20,133 nt of DNA, taken from a virus. The stretch spans positions 1 through 20,133 of IMG/VR virus record IMGVR_UViG_3300009488_000105; one strand, given 5' to 3'. This document shows, one piece after another, positions 312-20,133 of this stretch. Below the pieces are notes generated by a model that saw only the letters and a list, made by a program, of their open reading frames with translations, was not told the origin of the DNA and made no database searches. Numbering within the stretch: the stretch's first letter is position 1; each line of letters starts with the position of its first letter. The translations under genes and the position numbers were made by a program.

Positions 312-2786
312 CTAGGTTGTGCCGACTGCGGCGTCAAGGACGATGAACGGCGAGACTTCCGTGACGCCGTCTTTCAAGAAGATCGGCGCGCTCAGTTTCT
401 CTTGCCCGTCCACCCTCATCACAAACTTTATGACAAACTGGTTCAGCAGGAACCGAACGTGTCGGCTGGATGCGATGCTGAGTTCTTGCTTGTTGCCGAT
501 ATAGTACCATTGCCAATCGGCCAGGATCACGTCACCACGCGTGCCAAGCGTCTGGGTTTTCTCCGTGAACATGTACGGGAATCCGAGGATTCGAGGCGGC
601 TCACCGTCGCGAGCGTTGTCGACCCAGATGTAGTGCCCCGCCGGGTCCTGCAACGTCCGCAAACTGGTGTAACAGCTCTGGTGGAACACCCACATGGCGT
701 CGGTCCAGCTTGAGGGCAACAGATGTTGCTTCATATTCACGAGATCGAGATACGTTATTGCCCCAACACCGATACGGGCCTGTGCAAACGTACCTGTTGC
801 GTCGATCACGCCCTGCGGCATGCCTGCGCCGTGTCCGTCCAAGAAAGCTTCATCGCGATAGAAGCGCACCGCGTCGCGCATGGTTTTGCGCACGATGCTC
901 TCGACGCTGATCGGGCTATCCTGCATGAGTGCGTCTTTGATGGCCATCCACCCGCTGTATTCATGCACCACGAGTTCAATCTGCGTAAAGTCGATGTCCT
1001 CTTCGTGTTTCTGCGTACCCGTCTCAATCCAGCTCCCCACCATGCCGGGGATCATGTTAGTTTCGCCAGGCGTTGAGCCAGCCGTGCTCAGGCCAGGGAC
1101 CTGTACCGCACGGTTCGTCATGGGGATGACGTCAGCACGCGGCCAGACGATTTCCCGCTCCGGCTCCACCCTGATGATGTCGGTCAAGAACTGCGTTGGC
1201 ACGAGGAACCCACCCGATGCGCCGGTCTGATCGCCAAGGACCTTTTCACCATCTGAATACTGATTATCGTATTCAGTCCACTCAGAGCCCATGGCTTTCA
1301 GGGTCGCGCGGTCATCGGCGATTACGGCCTTGAGGAAATCCACAAAGCCCTTCCGGGGCTTCGTAGGCTCGCCGTTGTACGAAAAGCCCTTGCCATCGGG
1401 GGCGGTCTGCGCAGCCATGGCGGCGAACATCTTATCGTAGCGTTCGTCGGTAGCTTTCTGCTGCTCTTGCATAAGCGCGCGGGTGTCAGCCGCCGACCTC
1501 ATGATGGCCTTGAGCCATGGCGGCTGGAGCTCAGCCGCGATAAACTCAAGGGCCTTTTCAGCGCTGTCGAACAAGCCGCGCGGGTCGCCCCGCGTGCCGT
1601 CCTCAGCTACATCGAACACGTACTGTTGCCCATTGATCGGAATGACTTTTAGTGTCACTTTGCCACCTCCTGTGGCTGATTTCTGTTTCGGTTTCGGCGC
1701 CCGTTTTGGCGCCGGTTTCGGTGTTGGCTTCGCGGGTTTCTTAATCGCGTCTGCCGACACGCCCTTTTTCGGCGGGTCCTCTGGCAAGAGCGCCTTGATC
1801 TCGAATCCCTCGTTAGCCTCGATATATGCCTTCAGAGTGATGACTCGCGTCGTCGGCTCTGCCGGTGTCGGTGTGATGCTGGCGTCGAGGCGTAGTGGCC
1901 AGCGCTTGATCCATACGGCCTTCTCCATCGGCTCGCGTTCCACGATATGGGGCGCAGTGCCAGAGGAGAGGCCAAAGTTCTCTTTACTCTCTGCTTGGTC
2001 CTGTTCTATCCTGCGCCCAAGTGCAGCAATATAGCGATTCCGCATCTCAAGCTGCCCATCAAGCCAGATGCCCTCATCTAGCATCTTTAGGGTTCCATCG
2101 CCAATGGGCATCTTGCCCAGCGTCGGGTCTTGCCCGTGATGGTAGTAGAGCGTGGTGCGCTCGCCGTCTACCAGGTCAAAGTCGGTGTCTTTGGTGAAAT
2201 ACTCGCCCTCAAGGTCCGGCGTGTCTTGGTCGGTAAAGCGCACCAGGTAGCCGCCGATCTTGCCGCCCGCTGTAGCTTTGATAGCGCCGCCGTAGGCGAT
2301 GAGGGTCTCGCCTAGCATCTTCTCGACGAACTCCTGCTCGACCTCTGTCCACTCGTCGCGCTCGGCGAAGGTGATGTTGTCGTCTGCGTCCATGGTGTAC
2401 GGAACGCGCCAATACTCGGAGCCTCCACGCGCTATGACATGCTCGTCGAATACATCCCGCACCCAAAAGTCAGGCGGCGGATCGGGCGCAATCTCGCGCT
2501 GAGGCTTAGCGAAGGTCAGCCGAAAAGCCTCACGGATGCTCTCAATCTGTTCATCCAGGCTCTCGGCTTTCGCGGCGTCGTCTTTGTTGTCTTGCTCGTC
2601 TGTCATGGCTTTACCCCCTACCGCGCCGTTGGCCTGGATGATGGCCCGTGGCGCGCATGTCTCGTCAGTGCCGCCGTCAGCGATGCACTTGGAGAGGACG
2701 CTATTTGCTATCGCGACCCACTGGCGCTTTTGCTTGGCGTCGAGGCCGCGCTTGTGCTTGTCTACGTCGGCGGTTTGAAATGGCAT
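312..2786 (-). CDS. Fused HK97-type prohead protease, scaffold and major capsid protein (824 aa)
   Basis: One uninterrupted frame encodes a head polyprotein. Residues 1-58 (MPFQTADVDKHKRGL, two Cys) resemble a small domain often found at the start of phage protease-type proteins. Residues about 175-315 look like an HK97-type serine protease: GGYLVRFTDQDTPDLEGEYF, the His pair in YYHHGQDP (H216/H217), the Ser of GLSSGT (S274/S275), and the closing SITPTPAEP. Residues 348-375 are a Pro/Lys linker; 376-460 is a helical segment in the scaffold (delta) position. Residues about 465-824 look like an HK97-fold major capsid protein (GASGGFLVPTQF, ending near SPFIVLD). Separate protease and capsid genes are the norm, so self-cleavage after assembly is inferred. 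The ATG at 2786 has GAGG six bases upstream and overlaps the DUF551 gene by 25 bases. Family calls are from memory of motifs. Confidence 0.9.
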   Translation of the reverse strand: MPFQTADVDKHKRGLDAKQKRQWVAIANSVLSKCIADGGTDETCAPRAIIQANGAVGGKAMTDEQDNKDDAAKAESLDEQIESIREAFRLTFAKPQREIAPDPPPDFWVRDVFDEHVIARGGSEYWRVPYTMDADDNITFAERDEWTEVEQEFVEKMLGETLIAYGGAIKATAGGKIGGYLVRFTDQDTPDLEGEYFTKDTDFDLVDGERTTLYYHHGQDPTLGKMPIGDGTLKMLDEGIWLDGQLEMRNRYIAALGRRIEQDQAESKENFGLSSGTAPHIVEREPMEKAVWIKRWPLRLDASITPTPAEPTTRVITLKAYIEANEGFEIKALLPEDPPKKGVSADAIKKPAKPTPKPAPKRAPKPKQKSATGGGKVTLKVIPINGQQYVFDVAEDGTRGDPRGLFDSAEKALEFIAAELQPPWLKAIMRSAADTRALMQEQQKATDERYDKMFAAMAAQTAPDGKGFSYNGEPTKPRKGFVDFLKAVIADDRATLKAMGSEWTEYDNQYSDGEKVLGDQTGASGGFLVPTQFLTDIIRVEPEREIVWPRADVIPMTNRAVQVPGLSTAGSTPGETNMIPGMVGSWIETGTQKHEEDIDFTQIELVVHEYSGWMAIKDALMQDSPISVESIVRKTMRDAVRFYRDEAFLDGHGAGMPQGVIDATGTFAQARIGVGAITYLDLVNMKQHLLPSSWTDAMWVFHQSCYTSLRTLQDPAGHYIWVDNARDGEPPRILGFPYMFTEKTQTLGTRGDVILADWQWYYIGNKQELSIASSRHVRFLLNQFVIKFVMRVDGQEKLSAPIFLKDGVTEVSPFIVLDAAVGTT

Positions 2787-3004: not shown

Positions 3005-3484
3005 CTACCCTATCACCTTGTCTATCGCCGCTAGCACCATGTTCTGAATATCAGTAGCGCGCCGCTCCACCACGTCCTCGGCGGTGGGCCAGCCGGTGAT
3101 CTTGTGCATCGGGCTTTGTAGCTGGCGCGTCTGCACGAACCGCGCATACGTGACCTTGTTGCCCACAGTGGCGCTCATCCCGTCAAGCGCGACCGCCGTG
3201 GTCCAGCTCGGCCCGAGTCGCTGCGACATAGGGTCGCTCTGGCGTGTATACCGCGACGGCAGCCCCGCTGCATGTCGTTTCGCAAAGTAAGCCTTGCGCT
3301 GGTTCGCGCTCGCCCACTGTAGCGGGTAGTTTGTGTTGCGCGGCGGGTATTCAGCCATGTCGGCCTTGACGGTCTCGGCGGCCTGGCGCAGCACGGCACC
3401 CATGAACTTGCGGGCTCGAAGGTCGCCCAGCGTGTCGATGAGCTTGGGTATGCCTGAGACGTCGATCTTGATGCTAGCTACCAT
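3005..3484 (-). CDS. HK97 gp10-like head-tail/virion morphogenesis protein (159 aa)
   Basis: The protein begins MVASIKIDVSGIPKLIDTLG and continues with a long helix (ARKFMGAVLRQAAETVKADM). It then has a basic aromatic segment (YPLQWASANQRKAYFAKRH) and a strand-rich part ending in TVGNKVTYARFVQTRQ. This helix-then-barrel layout, with a late YARFVQ-like motif, is typical of phage HK97 gp10/tail-completion proteins acting at the head-tail junction. Length fits the family. The ATG at 3484 overlaps the preceding gene by 11 bases and has GAGGACACCG just upstream. Position between the portal fusion and the capsid fusion suits a virion assembly role. The family call is fairly confident; the exact position in the virion is inferred. 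Confidence 0.75.
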   Translation of the reverse strand: MVASIKIDVSGIPKLIDTLGDLRARKFMGAVLRQAAETVKADMAEYPPRNTNYPLQWASANQRKAYFAKRHAAGLPSRYTRQSDPMSQRLGPSWTTAVALDGMSATVGNKVTYARFVQTRQLQSPMHKITGWPTAEDVVERRATDIQNMVLAAIDKVIG

Positions 3485-3692
3485 CGGTGTCCTCTAGCGG
3501 CTCGAACTGGATGCCGTTGTCGCCGGGGAAGGGCTCGGTGTGATCGTTCTCACCTAGCCAGATTTCCTCGGGTATCTTCTCTGGGAATGCCTTACAAGTA
3601 TAGTCACCGTCTGTTAGCCAATTACGGCAAAATGTGCAGATAGTGCTATAGACTGGCAATGCAACAACGGTATCATCTAGGACAACAACCAC
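3474..3692 (-). CDS. Small Cys-containing conserved phage protein (72 aa)
   Basis: The start is GTG at 3692, overlapping the portal-fusion stop by one base (TAGTG), with GGAGG seven bases upstream. Cys residues sit at C19, C22 and C33 in CTFCRNW...YTC, followed by KAFPEKIPEEIW, a His, and PGDNGIQFEP. I have seen this pattern (CxxC, CxAFP.xIPxxI, then H..P..GDxGIxFE) in small uncharacterised phage and bacterial proteins. Three Cys plus a nearby His could bind zinc or iron, but that is inference. The CxxCxxW start resembles the repeat unit of the Cys-rich protein at 12735-14120. Function unknown. Confidence 0.75.
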   Translation of the reverse strand: MVVVLDDTVVALPVYSTICTFCRNWLTDGDYTCKAFPEKIPEEIWLGENDHTEPFPGDNGIQFEPLEDTDGS

Positions 3693-6535
3693 TACATTGC
3701 CTCCCTGCTGTAGCCCACATCAATTCCCCATGTCTCAATATAGTCCTTCGCAAAACGAGTCATAACCTCATGCCAATGATCCCTGTTTGCGTCTTCCATA
3801 GTCAAAGATCCTTGTACGATCCGTGGTCCCCAATCATCTTTGACTTTGCGGTCCTGTTCCCTTATATCCTCATCCACATCTTGTGGCCGTGCAGCTAACG
3901 TGTAAAACTTGGCGTCTGGATGTAGCCTGTAAAGCCGTGTTACTCCATCGGGTGCGGTTCCAACTGCTCGAATCTCTACGAGGTTATTGCGGCGCAACAT
4001 AGCCACGTCGCCAGGCGAGAACGAAGTCCCGCCTGGATGGTTATGCGTCAACGTAGCCCCACGCATAAGTTTCACCTCATCATCGGTAAACGTCACTGAG
4101 TTATGGGTGCCTGTTTTTGATAAGAGCACTTCCCCGCGTTCGTCTATAATGACAGCCGTCTCTATGTCGTGTCCGACGATAGTGTTCTCCGCGACCTCTA
4201 ACGCGCGTATCCTGGTTCGTTCCCGTAGACCGACAGACGGCGCGAATGCTGGCGCTAGCTCCACCGGCGCCCTCTCCACCCTCGGCACTTCCCACTTTTG
4301 CGTTATAAAACAGCGACAACGCGGATGACCTGGCGGCCAGTCTACCGTCCATCCTTGCTTCTTTGTCTTGCGGTGATTCGGCCAACATATCGGGCACTCC
4401 CGTACAATCTCATCGTTGGTTGTCTGCCAGACCGGCTCGACTCTGAGTCCTGCTTGCGTCGCCCTATCAATCAGTACCCGCTGGCCTTCTGAGTAGGCCG
4501 CCGTCGTCTCCGTCACGGCTATCATCTGCGCGCGAATCTGGTTAAACCATGGGAGCAGGCTGTTGCGCAGGTCCCCTATCGTCATCCCTGGTGTGCGCAC
4601 AAATGCGGCCACTTTTTTGGTGACGATGCGCTGCGTAGTATCCTCAATTCCCGTAATGAGCTCTCCGCCGTATCTCTCCGCCCATGCCGCCGCCTCTTCA
4701 GCTATGAGCGTCCAGTCAAACGCAAGCATCATCTCGCTCTGCTTGCTGCCACTACCCCCCGTCACAGGGTTCGTATCGTAGGCCGTCAGCGCCCCAGCCT
4801 CTACCATGCGGTCGATGTGTGGCTGTAGCACCGCACCTAGCGCCTCTTTCTCCTTGCGCCAGAACTCGAAATCTAGTCTGTTAATGTCCGGCTTCTTGCC
4901 CAGCTTTTTGATGATCCTCGCAAGCTGGACCTTGAAAAAGCGGCGCATGTCGAGCCCGATGCGTGCCTCGTCGCGGTCCTTCGCCGCGGCGTTCGGGTCC
5001 TGGTCTCCCTCAGCGGTCTCTCTGACCGCTTTAGCAAAAGGGTGTTCGAATATCTCCAGGGCCTCTTCAGTCGTGTCGGCTAGTTCAAGGTGCATGCGCA
5101 CGTACTGCTGCGTGTCCTCTGTGAGCACATCACTCTCGAAGCCGCGCGCGAGCGCCTTTTCAGGGCCTAGCCGCTTGACCACGCGGCGCCATTTGTGTAC
5201 ATCCTCCCACATGGCCTCGATGCTGGGCTGTAGCGCCTTCGTGGGCGGCGCGGGCAGCATGAGCGGCGGCGTTACTGCGCGTGCAAAGCCCTCTATTTCC
5301 TCTTGTGGCGCTGGCTGTGGCAGCATGACAATGGGCTCGGGCTTCTCAGGTCCCGGCAGCTCCTTAGGGAATGGCGTCCCCATCTGCGAGTAGTATTCGG
5401 CAACGACCCATGCACCTTGCTCGTGTGAAATCAGCTTTGCCTCGAAAGCCTCGATGGCCTTGCCGATCATCTCGGAGACACCTTCGGCTTTTACCGCCTC
5501 GTTTTTCTGAATCGCCTCGATCTCACCAACGAGGTATTCCCAGCGCAGACCCATACCGTCCCAAAGCTGTGTGTTCATGCCCGACTCGAATAGCTCAGCG
5601 TCGGGCACGAGGGCGCCGGTCACGAACTTGAGCGTCTCTTGCTCGTCTGTCGCCCTGTTGGCTGTCTTGCCCTCCAGGAACGTCACGCTCATACCATACG
5701 CGGCGGCAATCTCAGCAATCACGACGGCATGCAGGTCGGGGATGGCCAGGTCTTTGGTACGCTGGCCAATCGTCACCGGCTTCAAACCCCTGCGCAGCAC
5801 CGCCGTCCGCCACGCATTGCGCACAGAACCATGCATACGCTGCCAGACCGTTTTGACACGTTGAATCTCTATGTCTGGTAGGTTCTGGTCCGTCGTGAGC
5901 AACAGCGGCGGAATCGCGCCATGCTCGAAAAAGTTGGCCGCATAGCGCAATGCGTTTTCATTCAAGCCCGCAGCCATCGTTGCTACCGCGGCCGGTGCGA
6001 CGCCTGGCTGGATGTCGTTGTCGGGTCGCCATAACGGCTGGTAGACGATCTCGCGCGGTAACCACGTTGCCCGAACGATTCCCTCGATGCGTTGTTCGAA
6101 GCGCTTGATGCCTATCTTCGGGTCCCCGACCACCTCCATCGTCAGCGGGTTAAGGCGCCGTAGGTTCGTTGGCATCATCCAGTTGCCGACCTTTTCCCAG
6201 TAGGAGGCCCCCCACAGCATCCTATCAGCCTGCGAGCGCCAAAGGAGTTGCACCAGGTCCGTCTCGGGGAACCACGGCTGCATGGCACCCTCGACGCGGC
6301 TGTCGAAAACCTCTGTCTCGCCCTTGAACACCTTGTACTTGAGGCCCTGCAGCGCGTTGGCGCGTATCTGCGTCGCGCGATAGATCCAGGTGACAGCGCC
6401 GTATAGGTGCTGCGTGGTCTTGGCTTCCATCTTCTCAAAGAGCTCGGGAAAGAACACGTTGAGCTCGTTGAGCGAGATGGTCTTGCCGAAGCTGCCACCC
6501 ATGATGTATGTGTTGTTGAGGAGCGCTTTGTTCAT
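3692..6535 (-). CDS. Fusion of phage portal, MuF-like head morphogenesis and JAMM-like metalloprotease domain (947 aa)
   Basis: Residues about 40-385 look like an HK97-family portal (YGAVTWIYRATQIRANAL; WGASYWEK; VYQPLWRPDND; IAAAYGMSVTFLEGK), the dodecameric ring through which DNA enters the head. Residues 390-440 are a Pro-rich linker; 440-600 is mostly helical. Residues about 600-745 look like MuF/SPP1 gp7: VTETTAAYSEGQRV, then CPIC (C714, C717) and PPGHPRCRC (C740, C742). Residues about 785-870 resemble a JAB/MPN (JAMM) domain: E792 in IETAVIID, then HNHP (H831, H833), S840 and D843, fitting E...HxHP-x5-S-x2-D. Canonical spacing after HP is usually one residue longer. The start at 6535 has only a weak AGGA upstream; ATG at 6502 is an alternative. 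Portal and MuF are normally separate neighbours, so the triple fusion is unusual. Metalloprotease activity is inferred. Confidence 0.9.
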   Translation of the reverse strand: MNKALLNNTYIMGGSFGKTISLNELNVFFPELFEKMEAKTTQHLYGAVTWIYRATQIRANALQGLKYKVFKGETEVFDSRVEGAMQPWFPETDLVQLLWRSQADRMLWGASYWEKVGNWMMPTNLRRLNPLTMEVVGDPKIGIKRFEQRIEGIVRATWLPREIVYQPLWRPDNDIQPGVAPAAVATMAAGLNENALRYAANFFEHGAIPPLLLTTDQNLPDIEIQRVKTVWQRMHGSVRNAWRTAVLRRGLKPVTIGQRTKDLAIPDLHAVVIAEIAAAYGMSVTFLEGKTANRATDEQETLKFVTGALVPDAELFESGMNTQLWDGMGLRWEYLVGEIEAIQKNEAVKAEGVSEMIGKAIEAFEAKLISHEQGAWVVAEYYSQMGTPFPKELPGPEKPEPIVMLPQPAPQEEIEGFARAVTPPLMLPAPPTKALQPSIEAMWEDVHKWRRVVKRLGPEKALARGFESDVLTEDTQQYVRMHLELADTTEEALEIFEHPFAKAVRETAEGDQDPNAAAKDRDEARIGLDMRRFFKVQLARIIKKLGKKPDINRLDFEFWRKEKEALGAVLQPHIDRMVEAGALTAYDTNPVTGGSGSKQSEMMLAFDWTLIAEEAAAWAERYGGELITGIEDTTQRIVTKKVAAFVRTPGMTIGDLRNSLLPWFNQIRAQMIAVTETTAAYSEGQRVLIDRATQAGLRVEPVWQTTNDEIVRECPICWPNHRKTKKQGWTVDWPPGHPRCRCFITQKWEVPRVERAPVELAPAFAPSVGLRERTRIRALEVAENTIVGHDIETAVIIDERGEVLLSKTGTHNSVTFTDDEVKLMRGATLTHNHPGGTSFSPGDVAMLRRNNLVEIRAVGTAPDGVTRLYRLHPDAKFYTLAARPQDVDEDIREQDRKVKDDWGPRIVQGSLTMEDANRDHWHEVMTRFAKDYIETWGIDVGYSREAM

Positions 6536-9682: not shown

Positions 9683-9880
9683 TCACCGGGTCACTGCACT
9701 TCCGCTTGCGACCGCGCTTGGCTCGCACAGCTTGGGCTCCCATGACATACAAGGCGCTACCCATTCCTCCTCTAGGCATTGCGCCGGAACAACTATCTGG
9801 AGAGGGCTTGTAACACTGCAAATCAGGGCCACGCCATCCTCATGCCCCGCCGCACGATGTACACATGTCGCGCATTTCAT
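9683..9880 (-). CDS. Small Cys-rich protein, paralogue of 10106-10360 (65 aa)
   Basis: The ATG at 9880 overlaps the upstream membrane-protein stop (ATGA). Six Cys residues occur in 65 residues: C3 and C6 (CATC), C21, C35, C44 and C52. The CxxC opening and the closing W-E-x-x-LCEPS match the gene at 10106-10360, indicating tandem duplication. The arrangement suggests a small metal-binding (zinc) fold, which is inference. Translation is probably coupled to the upstream gene because its own Shine-Dalgarno site is poor. A second short frame (9675-9764) overlaps its 3' half, as in the other copy. Confidence 0.6.
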   Translation of the reverse strand: MKCATCVHRAAGHEDGVALICSVTSPLQIVVPAQCLEEEWVAPCMSWEPKLCEPSAVASGSAVTR

Positions 9881-10035
9881 ATCTCTTCCCGCTGAGTCAT
9901 CATCGCACAACTAACCATCGCAAAGAGGGCAAACCATATTGCGACCCCTATAGGTAGACCCAGGATGAGGGCCAGCACCCCAATCGCCAATCCTATTCCT
10001 ATATTGATGCGTATCATTAACGACTTAGTATCCAT
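9877..10035 (-). CDS. Small two-helix membrane protein (52 aa)
   Basis: The ATG at 10035 is preceded by GAGGAGGAGAG, one of the strongest ribosome binding sites in the window. The peptide begins MDTKSLMIRI and then is almost entirely hydrophobic (INIGIGLAIGVLALILG; PIGVAIWFALFAMVSCAMM), ending TQREEI. Two short membrane helices separated by a Gly-Leu-Pro turn are likely. Size and topology would allow a holin-like or envelope-modifying role, but no lysis partner is visible, so this is not asserted. It overlaps the ORFs on both sides. Confidence 0.7.
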   Translation of the reverse strand: MDTKSLMIRINIGIGLAIGVLALILGLPIGVAIWFALFAMVSCAMMTQREEI

Positions 10036-12163: not shown

Positions 12164-12193
12164 AACACAAAAGCCGCGTCACAAAGACGCGGC
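12164..12193 (-). terminator. Intrinsic terminator-like hairpin in the terS leader
   Basis: Read on the minus strand, GCCGCGTC and GACGCGGC form a perfect 8-bp GC-rich stem around the 5-base loop TTTGT, followed by TTTTGTGTT. This fits a factor-independent terminator, though the T-tract is interrupted. It lies downstream of the promoter and only 10 bases before the terS ATG. It would therefore stop transcripts from that promoter unless antiterminated, or it ends read-through from the upstream accessory operon. Confidence 0.7.
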
Positions 12194-12261
12194 CCACAAG
12201 CAAACGCAAACTGCCGATCCCAGGTCAATCGGAGTCGTTCATGCTTTCCCATATCCTACAC

Positions 12262-12291
12262 ATTATACACCCTACCGGGGTATGGTGTCAA
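12262..12291 (-). promoter_or_regulatory. Sigma-70-type promoter for the packaging/structural operon
   Basis: On the minus strand TTGACA (12291-12286) and TATAAT (12267-12262) both match consensus exactly, separated by 18 bases. Transcription would begin near 12255 and run into terS. The -35 box overlaps the stop codon of the upstream gene. A match this good in a tightly packed phage genome is unlikely by chance. It lies where late genes begin. Confidence 0.8.
12267..12288. promoter_or_regulatory. 22-bp inverted repeat in promoter spacer, candidate operator
   Basis: Minus-strand ACACCATACC and GGTAGGGTGT are inverted copies (9 of 10 positions) flanking CC. The repeat begins within the -35 box and ends at the first base of the -10 box, so a bound protein would block or reshape RNA polymerase binding. 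An activator that reshapes an 18-bp spacer, as MerR-type proteins do, is another option. No regulator gene is identified in the window. Confidence 0.6.
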
Positions 12292-12674
12292 GCATCTAGC
12301 CCAAACTGTTGCAGGCAAGCAATGGCGCGCGCCGCAACATAGATCAGCTCTAGCGTGTTGTCCGGATCTTTCAGGCACAAAGCCAAGGCCCCCTCAATGC
12401 TTTGGAGAAACGCCCCCACGCTGTCCCGCTTTGATTCATATTCTCTAACGTATTTCACTCTTTCAATCACGCTTGACAGCGCCTGGTTACTCTTCCCGAT
12501 GTCTCTCAGCCGCGCCCACTCATCAAACGCTCCTTTGCCCTTCACGCTAAGGTAGAAAGCCTCTTCTCTTCCTCCCGTCCAGATTCGGGTCCGCTCGTCT
12601 TTGAGTCCTACGCCTCCCGTAAAGTCAATCGCATCAACATCAACAAGCGAATCGCCAAACAACATTCTATTCAT
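12288..12674 (-). CDS. Accessory protein with shared N-terminal domain and helical tail (128 aa)
   Basis: The ATG at 12674 follows GTAGGAGGAGACA, a strong site. The first 60 residues (MNRMLFGDSLVDVDAIDF ... KGKGAFDEWARLRD) match the N-termini of the proteins at 12735-14120 and 14136-14423: a start like MNxxxFG, a D-V-D-x-I strand, then K-x-AFD-x-WA-x-x-RD. The rest is helical (VIERVKYVREYESKRDSV; GALALCLKDPDNTLELIYVA) with no metal ligands, unlike its paralogues. It is the last gene before the late promoter, which overlaps its stop. The shared domain looks like a small beta fold plus helix; I do not recognise its family. Function unknown. Confidence 0.75.
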   Translation of the reverse strand: MNRMLFGDSLVDVDAIDFTGGVGLKDERTRIWTGGREEAFYLSVKGKGAFDEWARLRDIGKSNQALSSVIERVKYVREYESKRDSVGAFLQSIEGALALCLKDPDNTLELIYVAARAIACLQQFGLDA

Positions 12675-12734
12675 TGTCTCCTCCTACGTCCTCCACGCTG
12701 CATTCTTCTCCTTCAGCATGTCGCTGTCACTATG

Positions 12735-14120
12735 TCAAGCATAATGACAATCAAACTCCTCACATCTGCGCTCGCTTCCATGCCAATTGAGACACTGGCC
12801 GCACTCTGCGGGCTCATCTAGCACGTAACACTCAGGATAGCCGAGTTCCTCAAATCTCTGCTTTCCGGCACAAAGTTCCGTCTCCCCATTATAGAAGCGG
12901 CATCCCTTGCACATAGACGCTACGCCCACCTTCGGTTCTTTGTGGCATGTGGGGTAGCTCTGTGATAGGCCCATACAGAGATCTATCGCGGCATTGTAGC
13001 GCCGGCACGTTCTGCATTCGGGATGCTGATAGATCGCTCGCCATTTCCTGCTTGTCGGATGATCACGGATGCCAGGCAGTGCAGCCTTTGTCTCCCGCTC
13101 CTCTTCCTCATGATGCGACCCTTTCTCGCACGGCACACCTGCTACATCATTACCGACATTACGGCAACCGCTCGTTGCGACGTTCAAATAACGACACCCC
13201 GCGCAAGATTCGACGCCTAGTTGGGGCAATTCAGGCTCTTCTTGGCCAAAGTACACCCCCCACTCATACTCACGGCAGCATGCTAGACAAGTTACTCTCA
13301 CGGTGCCATTCGGCCTTACCCAGACGTGGCCATAGACTTGACTCCCCCATGTTCTGGTACGAGCCAGCTCTGCCCCGCACGAGCATTTCCACACGCCCAA
13401 CAGGTTGATCTTATCCACCGCTTCGGATGGCACCCCCGATTCAGATCTAGGGCAATCCATCCACGGCTCCATTGCTTTATGACAGCGGCTCTCCGCCACA
13501 TTCCAGTGAGTACAACCGACGCAGTTCTCCCAAAACGAGCGCTCAGGCTTCTTCGCTACCCAGCACTCCGGGTAGTGGTTCCCGGCGAACTCTGTGCAAT
13601 TCTGGCTCTCCGCATCATAGCAGGCGCAGGTCTTGCAGCGGGGCTTGTTGACTTTCGTCTTTCTTTCCATATGACACTCTGGCTGTATTAGACAGAACCA
13701 TTCTGCCGCATGCCAGTGACGACACTTTTCGCAGTCTATCTTGTTCGCAACCTCCGCCACTGCCCTAGCCAACGGGCCATCGCATGACTCCTCTTCCCTC
13801 GCCACAAAGCACTCACGTAGCCACTCACGCCATTTAGCATCCCCCACCCCAACATCATCCCAATCCTCGATCTGAGCGATGATGCGGTCGATGATCTGCT
13901 CTGTATCGCACCCCGCATTGCCTCTCCCCTTCGCCCACTTATCAAACGCCTCTTTCGCCTCGCCGCGCAGAATTGCCTCCTTGCCGTTCCTGAACTGGAC
14001 GCGTGTCTGTGGCCCCTCTTCTGTTCCTGCAAACGTCGGTGAGTCTCCCTCTCGCATCTCCCAATACTGCACGTGGTCCGTGTCGATGCCCGCGTCAGGG
14101 CCTAGCGCTATCTGGTTCAT
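12735..14120 (-). CDS. Cys-rich repeat protein: seven CxxC-x9-C-x(4-13)-C modules (461 aa)
   Basis: The ATG at 14120 follows GGAGGAGAGAGCG. Residues 1-68 are the domain shared with the genes at 12288 and 14136 (MNQIALG ... AKEAFDKWAKGRG). Residues 70-128 are acidic and helical. Seven modules then follow, with Cys at 130/133/143/149, 162/165/175/186, 200/203/213/223, 306/309/319/331, 369/372/382/392, 404/407/417/431 and 440/443/453/458. Spacing CxxC-x9-C is invariant, with an aromatic or Leu usually two or three residues after CxxC (CRHWHAAEWFC, CTHWNVAESRC). Between modules 3 and 4 is a different zinc-ribbon-like unit (C246, C248, C278, C281). Each module has four Cys, enough for one zinc or Fe-S site. 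There is no signal peptide, so it is probably cytoplasmic. I know no named family for it; scaffolding, metal sequestration or nucleic-acid binding are guesses. Confidence 0.8.
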   Translation of the reverse strand: MNQIALGPDAGIDTDHVQYWEMREGDSPTFAGTEEGPQTRVQFRNGKEAILRGEAKEAFDKWAKGRGNAGCDTEQIIDRIIAQIEDWDDVGVGDAKWREWLRECFVAREEESCDGPLARAVAEVANKIDCEKCRHWHAAEWFCLIQPECHMERKTKVNKPRCKTCACYDAESQNCTEFAGNHYPECWVAKKPERSFWENCVGCTHWNVAESRCHKAMEPWMDCPRSESGVPSEAVDKINLLGVWKCSCGAELARTRTWGSQVYGHVWVRPNGTVRVTCLACCREYEWGVYFGQEEPELPQLGVESCAGCRYLNVATSGCRNVGNDVAGVPCEKGSHHEEEERETKAALPGIRDHPTSRKWRAIYQHPECRTCRRYNAAIDLCMGLSQSYPTCHKEPKVGVASMCKGCRFYNGETELCAGKQRFEELGYPECYVLDEPAECGQCLNWHGSERRCEEFDCHYA

Positions 14121-14135
14121 CGCTCTCTCCTCCTC

Positions 14136-14423
14136 TCAGTGATCGTGATGATGCGCATGTTCATGATTGTGCTCCACGCAACCGGCGTGTACACGAGTCT
14201 CATAATGCTTGTGTTGGTGAGTATGCGTTGCTAGGGGGTCCCTGCCGGCCGCCCATACATCAAAGGCACTTTTCGATTTGTCCCAAAGAAGGCGGCTATG
14301 CCCATCTCGAAATCTTACCTCTGTCGGAATTTTCTGGTCCCCAACTAATGATGCGTCTATCCCCCTTGCGTCCACGATCTCATCCACGTCGATCAATACT
14401 TCACCGAATAGAATCTGGTTCAC
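14136..14423 (-). CDS. Accessory protein with shared N-terminal domain and His-rich tail (95 aa)
   Basis: The start is GTG at 14423, overlapping the upstream stop (GTGA), with GAGGGGAGGGG just before it. Residues 1-62 (VNQILFGEVLIDVDEIVD ... SAFDVWAAGRD) are the domain shared with the two following genes. Residues 67-95 hold 12 His and one Cys in 29 positions (THTHQHKHY; HNHEHAHHHDH), a pattern typical of zinc, nickel or copper binding tails in metallochaperones. Metal binding is inferred from composition. It lies 15 bases upstream of the Cys-module paralogue, so both are probably co-expressed. I know no phage family with this layout. Confidence 0.8.
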   Translation of the reverse strand: MNQILFGEVLIDVDEIVDARGIDASLVGDQKIPTEVRFRDGHSRLLWDKSKSAFDVWAAGRDPLATHTHQHKHYETRVHAGCVEHNHEHAHHHDH

Positions 14424-14701
14424 TGGCCCCTCCCCTCGCACGGATCATCTCGCGCTATCAGGTTGCCCTCCATGTCAAATATCTCAGTCACCTCGCGAAC
14501 CGTCTCTAGTTCTACCGGAAGCCCCTCCCCTTTGCCCATTCCAGACCCCCAACACGAGCGCACAACGACGACCTGCTGAATTTCTACGCTATTGACCCAA
14601 GACGGGCGCGATCTTGCGCGAAACAGCCTCTTGATAGCACCAACTCGCGCTTGCCGTTCCATTTCAAGCATCTGCCCAGAAGTATACTTCAGTTCATCCA
14701 T
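14420..14701 (-). CDS. Uncharacterised small protein (93 aa)
   Basis: The ATG at 14701 follows GAGGAGGGGAGCG. The N-terminal 40 residues are basic and helical (MDELKYTSGQMLEMERQARV; GAIKRLFRARSRPSW). The remainder is strand-rich (VEIQQVVVVRSCWG, LETVREVTEIFDMEGNLIA). The gene overlaps both neighbours by a few bases and clearly belongs to the accessory operon. I recognise no family, and no catalytic or metal-binding pattern is visible. Confidence 0.65.
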   Translation of the reverse strand: MDELKYTSGQMLEMERQARVGAIKRLFRARSRPSWVNSVEIQQVVVVRSCWGSGMGKGEGLPVELETVREVTEIFDMEGNLIARDDPCEGRGQ

Positions 14702-16608: not shown

Positions 16609-16802
16609 CCCTCTCCCTCCTTAGCTTTTCTCCTCAGGCAATCTGCACATAGATATTCAGGCACCGGCGGCAGCGGCGCCTCTTCGCGACGCGGAGGATA
16701 GTGGCCCTTGCATGCGCTCACGGTGCTACCTTGTTCGTACCAGTGCATCTTGCTCGCAAACCCTGAATTCCAACGCCATCCTGAGACCGCTGTTTTCGTC
16801 AC
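16605..16802 (-). CDS. Small Cys-containing protein (65 aa)
   Basis: The start is GTG 16802, overlapping the upstream stop (GTGA), with AGAGGAGGGGAC immediately before it. A possible metal site is formed by CKGH near residue 31 and CADC near residue 52 (a CxxH...CxxC pattern), with a Pro-rich loop between. The C-terminus is charged (RRKAKEGEG). Small zinc-knuckle-like proteins are frequent in phage early regions. No family recognised; metal binding is inferred. Confidence 0.65.
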   Translation of the reverse strand: MTKTAVSGWRWNSGFASKMHWYEQGSTVSACKGHYPPRREEAPLPPVPEYLCADCLRRKAKEGEG

Positions 16803-17221
16803 GTCCCCTCCTCTGGCTCATGGCCCACGGCGACAGGGATTCCGTCAACGGGAGTCTCCTCTTCCCAATAGTCACAATCTGCACATCGCTGTACTAGACA
16901 GGTTGTTGTCAGTGTTTTGGGCGTATCGTCCAGCATCTCGCCGCCGCAGAGCGGGCAGGTGTCACTCATCCCCCGTCCTCCCTCTAGCCGCATCACGTGG
17001 TCCGGGTTGTGCTCCGCCGTCCACTGCGCCGGCCCATATTTGTCTCTAGCAACACAGATGGGACACTTGTCTTTCCCGTTGGTATGTTGCCATGCCGCCG
17101 CGGGCATCTGGTCTCTCACGACTGAGCTTGCCTCTGCAGGGCTCTGCGCGCCCTTGGGCCATTTCACAATCTCGCACCTGCCACATGAGTCACACCAAAG
17201 ATTGGCTTCAAAAACGATCAT
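16799..17221 (-). CDS. Protein with two zinc-ribbon-like halves, possible internal start (140 aa)
   Basis: The ATG at 17221 follows GGAGGGTGAGGGG. Two Cys sets are visible: CDSC (C10, C13) with CPIC (C53, C56), and CPLC (C89, C92) with CADC (C113, C116). Each fits one zinc ribbon. At M85 (position 16969) there is a second start candidate with GGAGG seven bases upstream, beginning MSDTCPLCGG, exactly at the boundary between halves. The second half may therefore also be made alone, or two former genes have fused in frame. Zinc ribbons of this size often contact nucleic acid or protein partners; no specific role is shown. Confidence 0.75.
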   Translation of the reverse strand: MIVFEANLWCDSCGRCEIVKWPKGAQSPAEASSVVRDQMPAAAWQHTNGKDKCPICVARDKYGPAQWTAEHNPDHVMRLEGGRGMSDTCPLCGGEMLDDTPKTLTTTCLVQRCADCDYWEEETPVDGIPVAVGHEPEEGT

Positions 17222-19770: not shown

Positions 19771-20133
19771 TCACGCCCCGCCTCGCGCCCAGTCCTTGTA
19801 CTTGATCTTTGTGATGACTCGACCTCCGCGCCGAGTAAGCAGCTCCGTCTCTGGTCGCATCACCAAGCCCTCCATAATGAGTGTTGCATTCGATGCAATG
19901 CGCGAGAACTCGCCAAGGCGCACGAACTCTATGGCCTCCGCGAGCGTCCCGCGCCCAACGATGGGCACGATCCGAATGTTGAGTTTCTTGGCAATGTCCT
20001 CGACGTTCTCACGTTCCAGCCATGCCCCAGCCCACACATCGAACAGGATAAAATCGACGCTGTCCGGCAGATAGTTGCCACCGCCCTTTTGGATTCGCGC
20101 ACCATAGCCCTCACCGCAAAGCATCATCTCGCC
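19771..20133 (-). CDS. RNA ligase, C-terminal part (5' end outside window)
   Basis: The frame is open through the right edge, so the N-terminus with the adenylated Lys (motif I) is missing. Visible are GEGYGARIQKGG, the motif III-like strand FILFDVW, motif IV EGLVMRP and motif V KIKYKDW, the ordered nucleotidyltransferase motifs of T4 Rnl2-like RNA ligases. These enzymes seal nicked or cleaved RNA; in phages they can repair tRNAs cut by host defence nucleases. No kinase/phosphatase partner is visible here, so that role is inferred. The stop is 70 bases upstream of the replication initiator ATG, with nothing evident between. Confidence 0.85.
   Translation of the reverse strand, partial: GEMMLCGEGYGARIQKGGGNYLPDSVDFILFDVWAGAWLERENVEDIAKKLNIRIVPIVGRGTLAEAIEFVRLGEFSRIASNATLIMEGLVMRPETELLTRRGGRVITKIKYKDWARGGA

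Follow-up and report, generated by a model that had tools for sequence, protein, structure and literature searches.

Three adjacent phage paralogues with an apparently orphan N-terminal domain and unlike tails

Three neighbouring genes share one N-terminal domain

The DNA analysed here (the window) is the 20,133-base IMG/VR virus record IMGVR_UViG_3300009488_000105, whose genes lie on the minus strand. Three adjacent ORFs, designated A, B and C, were confirmed in it, each opening with the same kind of domain (the N-domain):

14136..14423, minus strand: gene A, 95 aa, N-domain and His-rich tail; starts with GTG and overlaps the gene upstream by 4 bp
14238..14423, minus strand: A N-domain, residues 1-62 (alignment, shuffles, profiles, AlphaFold2 model)
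12735..14120, minus strand: gene B, 461 aa, 37 Cys
13920..14120, minus strand: B N-domain, residues 1-67 (alignment, shuffles, profiles)
12288..12674, minus strand: gene C, 128 aa
12501..12674, minus strand: C N-domain, residues 1-58 (alignment, shuffles, profiles)

To the right of A are small ORFs, followed by an endonuclease-like gene, a DnaB-like helicase, a replication initiator and a fragment of an RNA-ligase-like gene. The fragment (19771-20133, minus strand) encodes part of a protein truncated by the window end and matches phrog_548 (E 4e-11). To the left of C lie a terS-like gene and TerL, and farther left a portal-MuF fusion and a capsid gene. The portal protein (3692-6535, minus strand) has 947 aa, with a fused MuF-like domain and an additional C-terminal part. 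The 824-aa capsid protein (312-2786, minus strand) has a long N-terminal part and is probably a protease-capsid fusion, the protease being presumed. The window TerL is 64% identical to that of the nearest relative found (locus L003) and at most 43% identical to those of the isolated phages listed, with Bordetella phage BPP-1 at 41%.

Purine-rich ribosome-binding sites precede B and C, while A is tied to its upstream gene by a GTGA overlap; a second GTG start for A lies in frame at 14441. Gene order and spacing fit the single operon proposed in an earlier note on this DNA, co-expression being suggested by the spacing only. The annotated frame was favoured by codon statistics for the whole of A, B and C, but not for the His tail of A alone.

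The same note had described three adjacent paralogues with a common N-terminal domain, and this was borne out by the ORFs and by two kinds of sequence comparison. The domains (62, 67 and 58 residues in A, B and C) align with 14 invariant columns. The local alignment scores were 89 for A/B, 75 for A/C and 47 for B/C, where the best shuffles gave 54, 59 and 50, and the observed score was reached by 0 of 5,000 shuffles for A/B, 0 of 5,000 for A/C and 1 of 5,000 for B/C. When profiles were trained on two of the domains and the third was sought, the left-out paralogue was the best non-training ORF among 11,082 (E 3.5e-8 for A, 2.6e-4 for B and 9.7e-4 for C), with the next ORF at E of at least 0.7. 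The shuffle tests and the leave-one-out profiles rule out chance likeness of the N-termini. Judged from these comparisons, the three N-domains are paralogues beyond reasonable doubt.

The motifs reported earlier could be read off the translations. The starts NQILFG, NQIALG and NRMLFG are exact in A, B and C, as is the closing K-x-AFD-x-WA-x-x-R. The D-x-D-x-I strand needed an amendment: B has D-T-D-H-V instead, which widens the motif to D-x-D-x-[IV].

The three N-domains are 47-50% identical as DNA over aligned codons, and the third base is common to identical residues in only 10 of 24, 9 of 22 and 10 of 20 pairwise cases (41-50%). The low DNA identity and the disagreement of third bases indicate that the duplication is old; at only about 48% identity, an assembly repeat is ruled out. 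Since the protein motifs are kept while third bases agree so rarely, and since neither the reading frames nor the ribosome sites nor the codon statistics show decay, all three genes seem to be selected at the protein level. The net charge of the N-domain is acidic in each protein (-4, -3 and -2).

An AlphaFold2 model of the A N-domain, with B and C supplied as the alignment, reached a mean pLDDT of 74, with a poor loop at residues 21-27. It has strands at 2-6, 9-13, 15-17, 34-37 and 43-46 and a helix at 51-61; the predicted fold is a small sheet followed by a helix at the C-terminus. Searches with this model in two Foldseek libraries, and a second fold comparison, gave no convincing match (E in the PDB no better than 2, highest Z 2.9), and the top PDB and viral rows of the fold searches were weak and mixed.

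The tails are unrelated

Beyond the N-domain, the three proteins part company:

14139..14237, minus strand: A tail, residues 63-95, 12 His in 29 residues
13734..13919, minus strand: B linker, about 60 residues, helical-looking, unrelated to the C tail
13674..13733, minus strand: B Cys module 1, residues 130-149, C-x2-C-x9-C-x5-C
13563..13637, minus strand: B Cys module 2, residues 162-186
13452..13523, minus strand: B Cys module 3, residues 200-223
13275..13385, minus strand: different Cys cluster of B, residues 246-282, C-x-C ... C-x2-C-C, zinc-ribbon-like as read from the sequence
13128..13205, minus strand: B Cys module 4, residues 306-331
12945..13016, minus strand: B Cys module 5, residues 369-392
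12828..12911, minus strand: B Cys module 6, residues 404-431
12747..12803, minus strand: B Cys module 7, residues 440-458
12291..12500, minus strand: C tail, residues 59-128, helical-looking, no metal-ligand cluster

The earlier claims that the tails are entirely different and that A has 12 His in 29 residues were both confirmed, the former by shuffle comparisons. The B linker and the C tail showed no resemblance (796 of 3,000 shuffles were as good), nor did the A tail and B (2,879 of 3,000). The tails of A, B and C are thus unrelated, and the N-domain is the only common part. Because the B linker and the C tail are unlike, the idea that C is B minus its Cys part was ruled out. The tails are acidic, like the N-domains.

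The histidines of the A tail are encoded by six CAT and six CAC codons, and are not a codon repeat. Given that both codons are used equally, the histidines look selected at the protein level. From its composition, the His-rich tail is a probable ligand of divalent metal, such as zinc, nickel or one like them.

The seven four-Cys modules of B described previously were recovered, but an eighth cluster (C246-x-C248 ... C278-x2-C281-C282, between modules 3 and 4) and the linker of about 60 residues before module 1 had been missed. The modules follow C-x2-C-x9-C-x(4-13)-C; the x9 spacing is constant in all seven, and the second Cys is followed by W/Y/L and then N/H/D. C-x2-C-x9-C occurs 7 times in B against 0.2 expected, with a maximum of 4 in 20,000 shuffles. 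The fixed Cys spacing and the conserved residues after the second Cys fit zinc knuckles under selection. The modules are most likely structural zinc sites, with Fe-S or disulfide as alternatives; a structure model of a module was of low confidence (pLDDT 59).

The 70-residue tail of C has 2 Cys and 0 His. The proposal that the shared domain carries different metal-binding payloads can therefore hold only for A and B, which have ligand patterns, and not for the C tail, which lacks a metal-ligand cluster.

A strong promoter-like element follows gene C

Three elements lie between the end of C and terS:

12262..12291, minus strand: sigma-70 promoter matching the consensus at 12/12 positions, with a spacer of 18 nt; the C stop codon is overlapped by the -35 box
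12267..12288, no strand assigned: inverted repeat, arms of 10, gap of 2, 9/10 complementary, from the -35 to the -10 box
12171..12195, minus strand: terminator-like hairpin of 10 pairs, between promoter and terS

The next-best sigma-70 promoter in the window scores 10/12, and the 10-2-10 inverted repeat is the only one of its form there. Lying between the hexamers, it is a candidate operator of late genes. The closest relative, L003, likewise has a terminator-like hairpin before terS, of 14 pairs (L003:377-408), and a leader terminator is possibly conserved between the two. No comparable promoter was found in the short stretch upstream of terS in L003 or in a further related locus, L004. The arrangement after C suggests a late promoter that is regulated and followed by an early terminator. 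The trio had been placed just before the late promoter; a strong promoter does follow C, but 'late' is read from its position before terS and terL.

Searches for relatives of the N-domain

No N-domain relative was found in Pfam, PHROGs, NCBIfam, PADLOC or the PDB. The same was true of GenBank phages, plasmids, IMG/VR and GTDB contigs, where the scans reach close relatives only. IMG/VR was scanned with B, C, the trio alignment and two motif patterns, and the GTDB contigs with B and the alignment; both scans were seeded by short exact or degenerate patterns, which distant relatives could escape. As a positive control, the B sequence recovered A within the window (E 2.4e-5). The closing motif K-x-AFD-x-WA-x-x-R occurred in 10 stretches of the whole IMG/VR collection as against 3 in the window, and F-x-[DN]-G-x11-AFD-x-W occurred in 14 IMG/VR stretches; none of these IMG/VR stretches was related. 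In 80 viral loci with a related TerL there was no ORF like the N-domain and never more than one module of the B type, and 22 whole related records held no N-domain relative either. Like the scans, this survey would miss distant relatives, and the collections may lack some very near records.

Several candidate matches were rejected. A Microbacterium phage match in the GenBank phage search was antisense to an annotated gene. The matches of B to DUF7297 (E 0.013) and phrog_2813 (E 0.028) were weak and confined to the linker and the first module, and matches to phrog_16621 and phrog_15580 covered 13-14 residues, each in a single paralogue. By sequence, the PDB held nothing usable for the N-domain or B; a beta-microseminoprotein match of a B module (E 0.07) rests on Cys spacing. 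FlbD (PF06289) and KTSC (PF13619) presumably resemble the N-domain in size and in a strand pattern T-x-V-x-F-x-D-G followed by a helix. Neither gave a window match at E <= 10 in a search that detects both families in control genomes.

The view that no named family has the layout of the trio was upheld, as Pfam, PHROGs, NCBIfam and PADLOC gave no usable match. The survey of the domain's tails in other phages that had been suggested with it came back empty, as the domain turned up in no other genome searched. As far as these searches reach, the N-domain appears to be an orphan in one phage contig, in a layout that fits no family tested.

Comparison with known systems

HypB, UreE and CooJ are proteins with His-rich metal-binding tails. 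SlyD is another; its C-terminal nickel-binding domain supplies nickel-enzyme biogenesis (PMC11198818). Like SlyD, Hpn and similar proteins, A consists of a folded part and then a His-rich, metal-binding type of tail. Unlike SlyD, HypB and UreE, it has no FKBP, GTPase or urease-accessory domain by Pfam, and the tail sits on a 62-residue orphan domain. Set beside a SlyD- or HypB-type metallochaperone, A therefore offers the His-rich tail and no Pfam domain.

B resembles phage multi-zinc-knuckle and zinc-ribbon proteins in its repeated four-Cys modules with a CxxC start, and differs from them in having seven copies in one chain behind an orphan domain; the modules had no Pfam, PHROGs or NCBIfam match. 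A metallothionein is a short, very Cys-rich chain with metal-thiolate clusters, whereas B has 461 aa and 37 Cys spaced in modules, with no family match. In domain shuffling of the BRO-N and KilA-N type, phage paralogue sets keep one conserved domain and exchange its partner domains. The trio differs from such sets in that its domain is another one, is not a recognised DNA-binding domain and was found in one contig only. Nothing comparable emerged from the literature searched on metallothioneins and His-rich proteins of phages or on domain shuffling.

Possible function of the trio

Given that only the N-domain is common to the trio, a common function should be the domain's. The net acidic charge of the N-domains argues against direct nucleic-acid binding, and a small, acidic domain with unlike tails fits docking or assembly better than DNA binding or catalysis. 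We tentatively favour, at somewhat less than an even chance, the reading that duplication of an orphan docking domain, and its fusion to unlike tails, gave rise to three proteins with one common target. One domain, with strands, then a helix and the K-x-AFD-x-WA-x-x-R end, would have been duplicated into a small lineage-specific family, the copies being fused to, or gaining, different tails. Through protein-protein docking or assembly, the N-domain would recruit each tail to one and the same host or phage protein. The B tail would form a row of eight small Cys clusters, a long interaction scaffold of structural zinc sites; the His-rich tail of A would bind zinc, nickel or a similar metal; and in C the work would fall to a metal-free helical tail. 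We infer metal binding from the ligand patterns and docking from the fusion of a small acidic domain to unlike tails, and the common target is a supposition as well. Against docking stand the lack of a convincing fold match and that of any relative found, hence of a recurring partner or a second tail set as independent evidence. A bolder form, in which the domain would unite three parts on one host target (the His-rich tail as metal carrier, the multi-zinc scaffold, and a helical effector free of metal) and the phage would so control the metal supply or activity of that target, is unlikely.

The strong and apparently selected metal-ligand patterns of A and B also suit a metal-handling set, in which A would buffer or deliver a transition metal, B would sequester zinc and C would be a metal-free partner or adaptor, the domain docking them on a common target that depends on metal, for instance a host enzyme or transporter. 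The SlyD nickel-binding domain (PMC11198818) is a precedent. However, C has no ligands, so that metal handling is probably not the common task of the trio; the Cys density of B (37 of 461) and its fixed spacing look structural rather than metallothionein-like; the neighbouring genes scanned included no recognisable transporter, metalloenzyme or metal sensor; and no literature on comparable phage systems was found. We regard this set as improbable, and the trio is no evidence of a phage metal system.

A further reading starts from position. The lambda Q protein, which contains zinc, acts at the spacer of the promoter, and the trio is placed where lambda Q sits: C ends in the -35 box of the 12/12 promoter directly downstream, with the palindrome from -35 to -10, found once in the window, and terminator-like hairpins before terS here and in L003 as candidate elements. 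C or another member could then act on that promoter or on RNA polymerase, the zinc modules of B being a polymerase or nucleic-acid contact. Yet A, B and C have no Pfam, PHROGs or NCBIfam match to a lambda Q-like antiterminator or a DNA-binding family, no helix-turn-helix was recognised, N-domains and tails are acidic, and the short stretch upstream of terS in L003 and L004 shows no counterpart of the promoter, so late-transcription regulators seem quite unlikely. Finally, copies of an accessory ORF may have acquired unrelated 3' sequence by lineage-specific drift, with no joint function and with separate roles for the His and Cys richness. The detection of the family in one contig only, as far as the searches reach, and the three tails without anything in common agree with this, but N-domain motifs kept against 41-50% third-base agreement, together with intact frames, ribosome sites and codon statistics, do not; drift is doubtful.

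Should the N-domain prove to serve docking, its 62-residue form used as bait in a single pull-down could identify the target of all three proteins at once, and comparing metal-binding with metal-free tails would reveal whether metal matters. Already now, the orphan domain offers a three-way comparison within a single phage.

Other cysteine-containing ORFs in the window

Three further minus-strand ORFs carry Cys motifs. A Cys-rich 140-aa ORF (16799-17221) has two zinc-ribbon-like halves and weakly matches phrog_17511 and the Lar family. A 75-aa ORF (9683-9910), which has no Pfam or PHROGs match, contains a small four-Cys module C-x2-C...C...C (KCATCVHR...ICSV...QC). In a 72-aa ORF (3474-3692), CTFCRNW...C resembles the start of the B modules, and this ORF matches phrog_33375, of unknown function.
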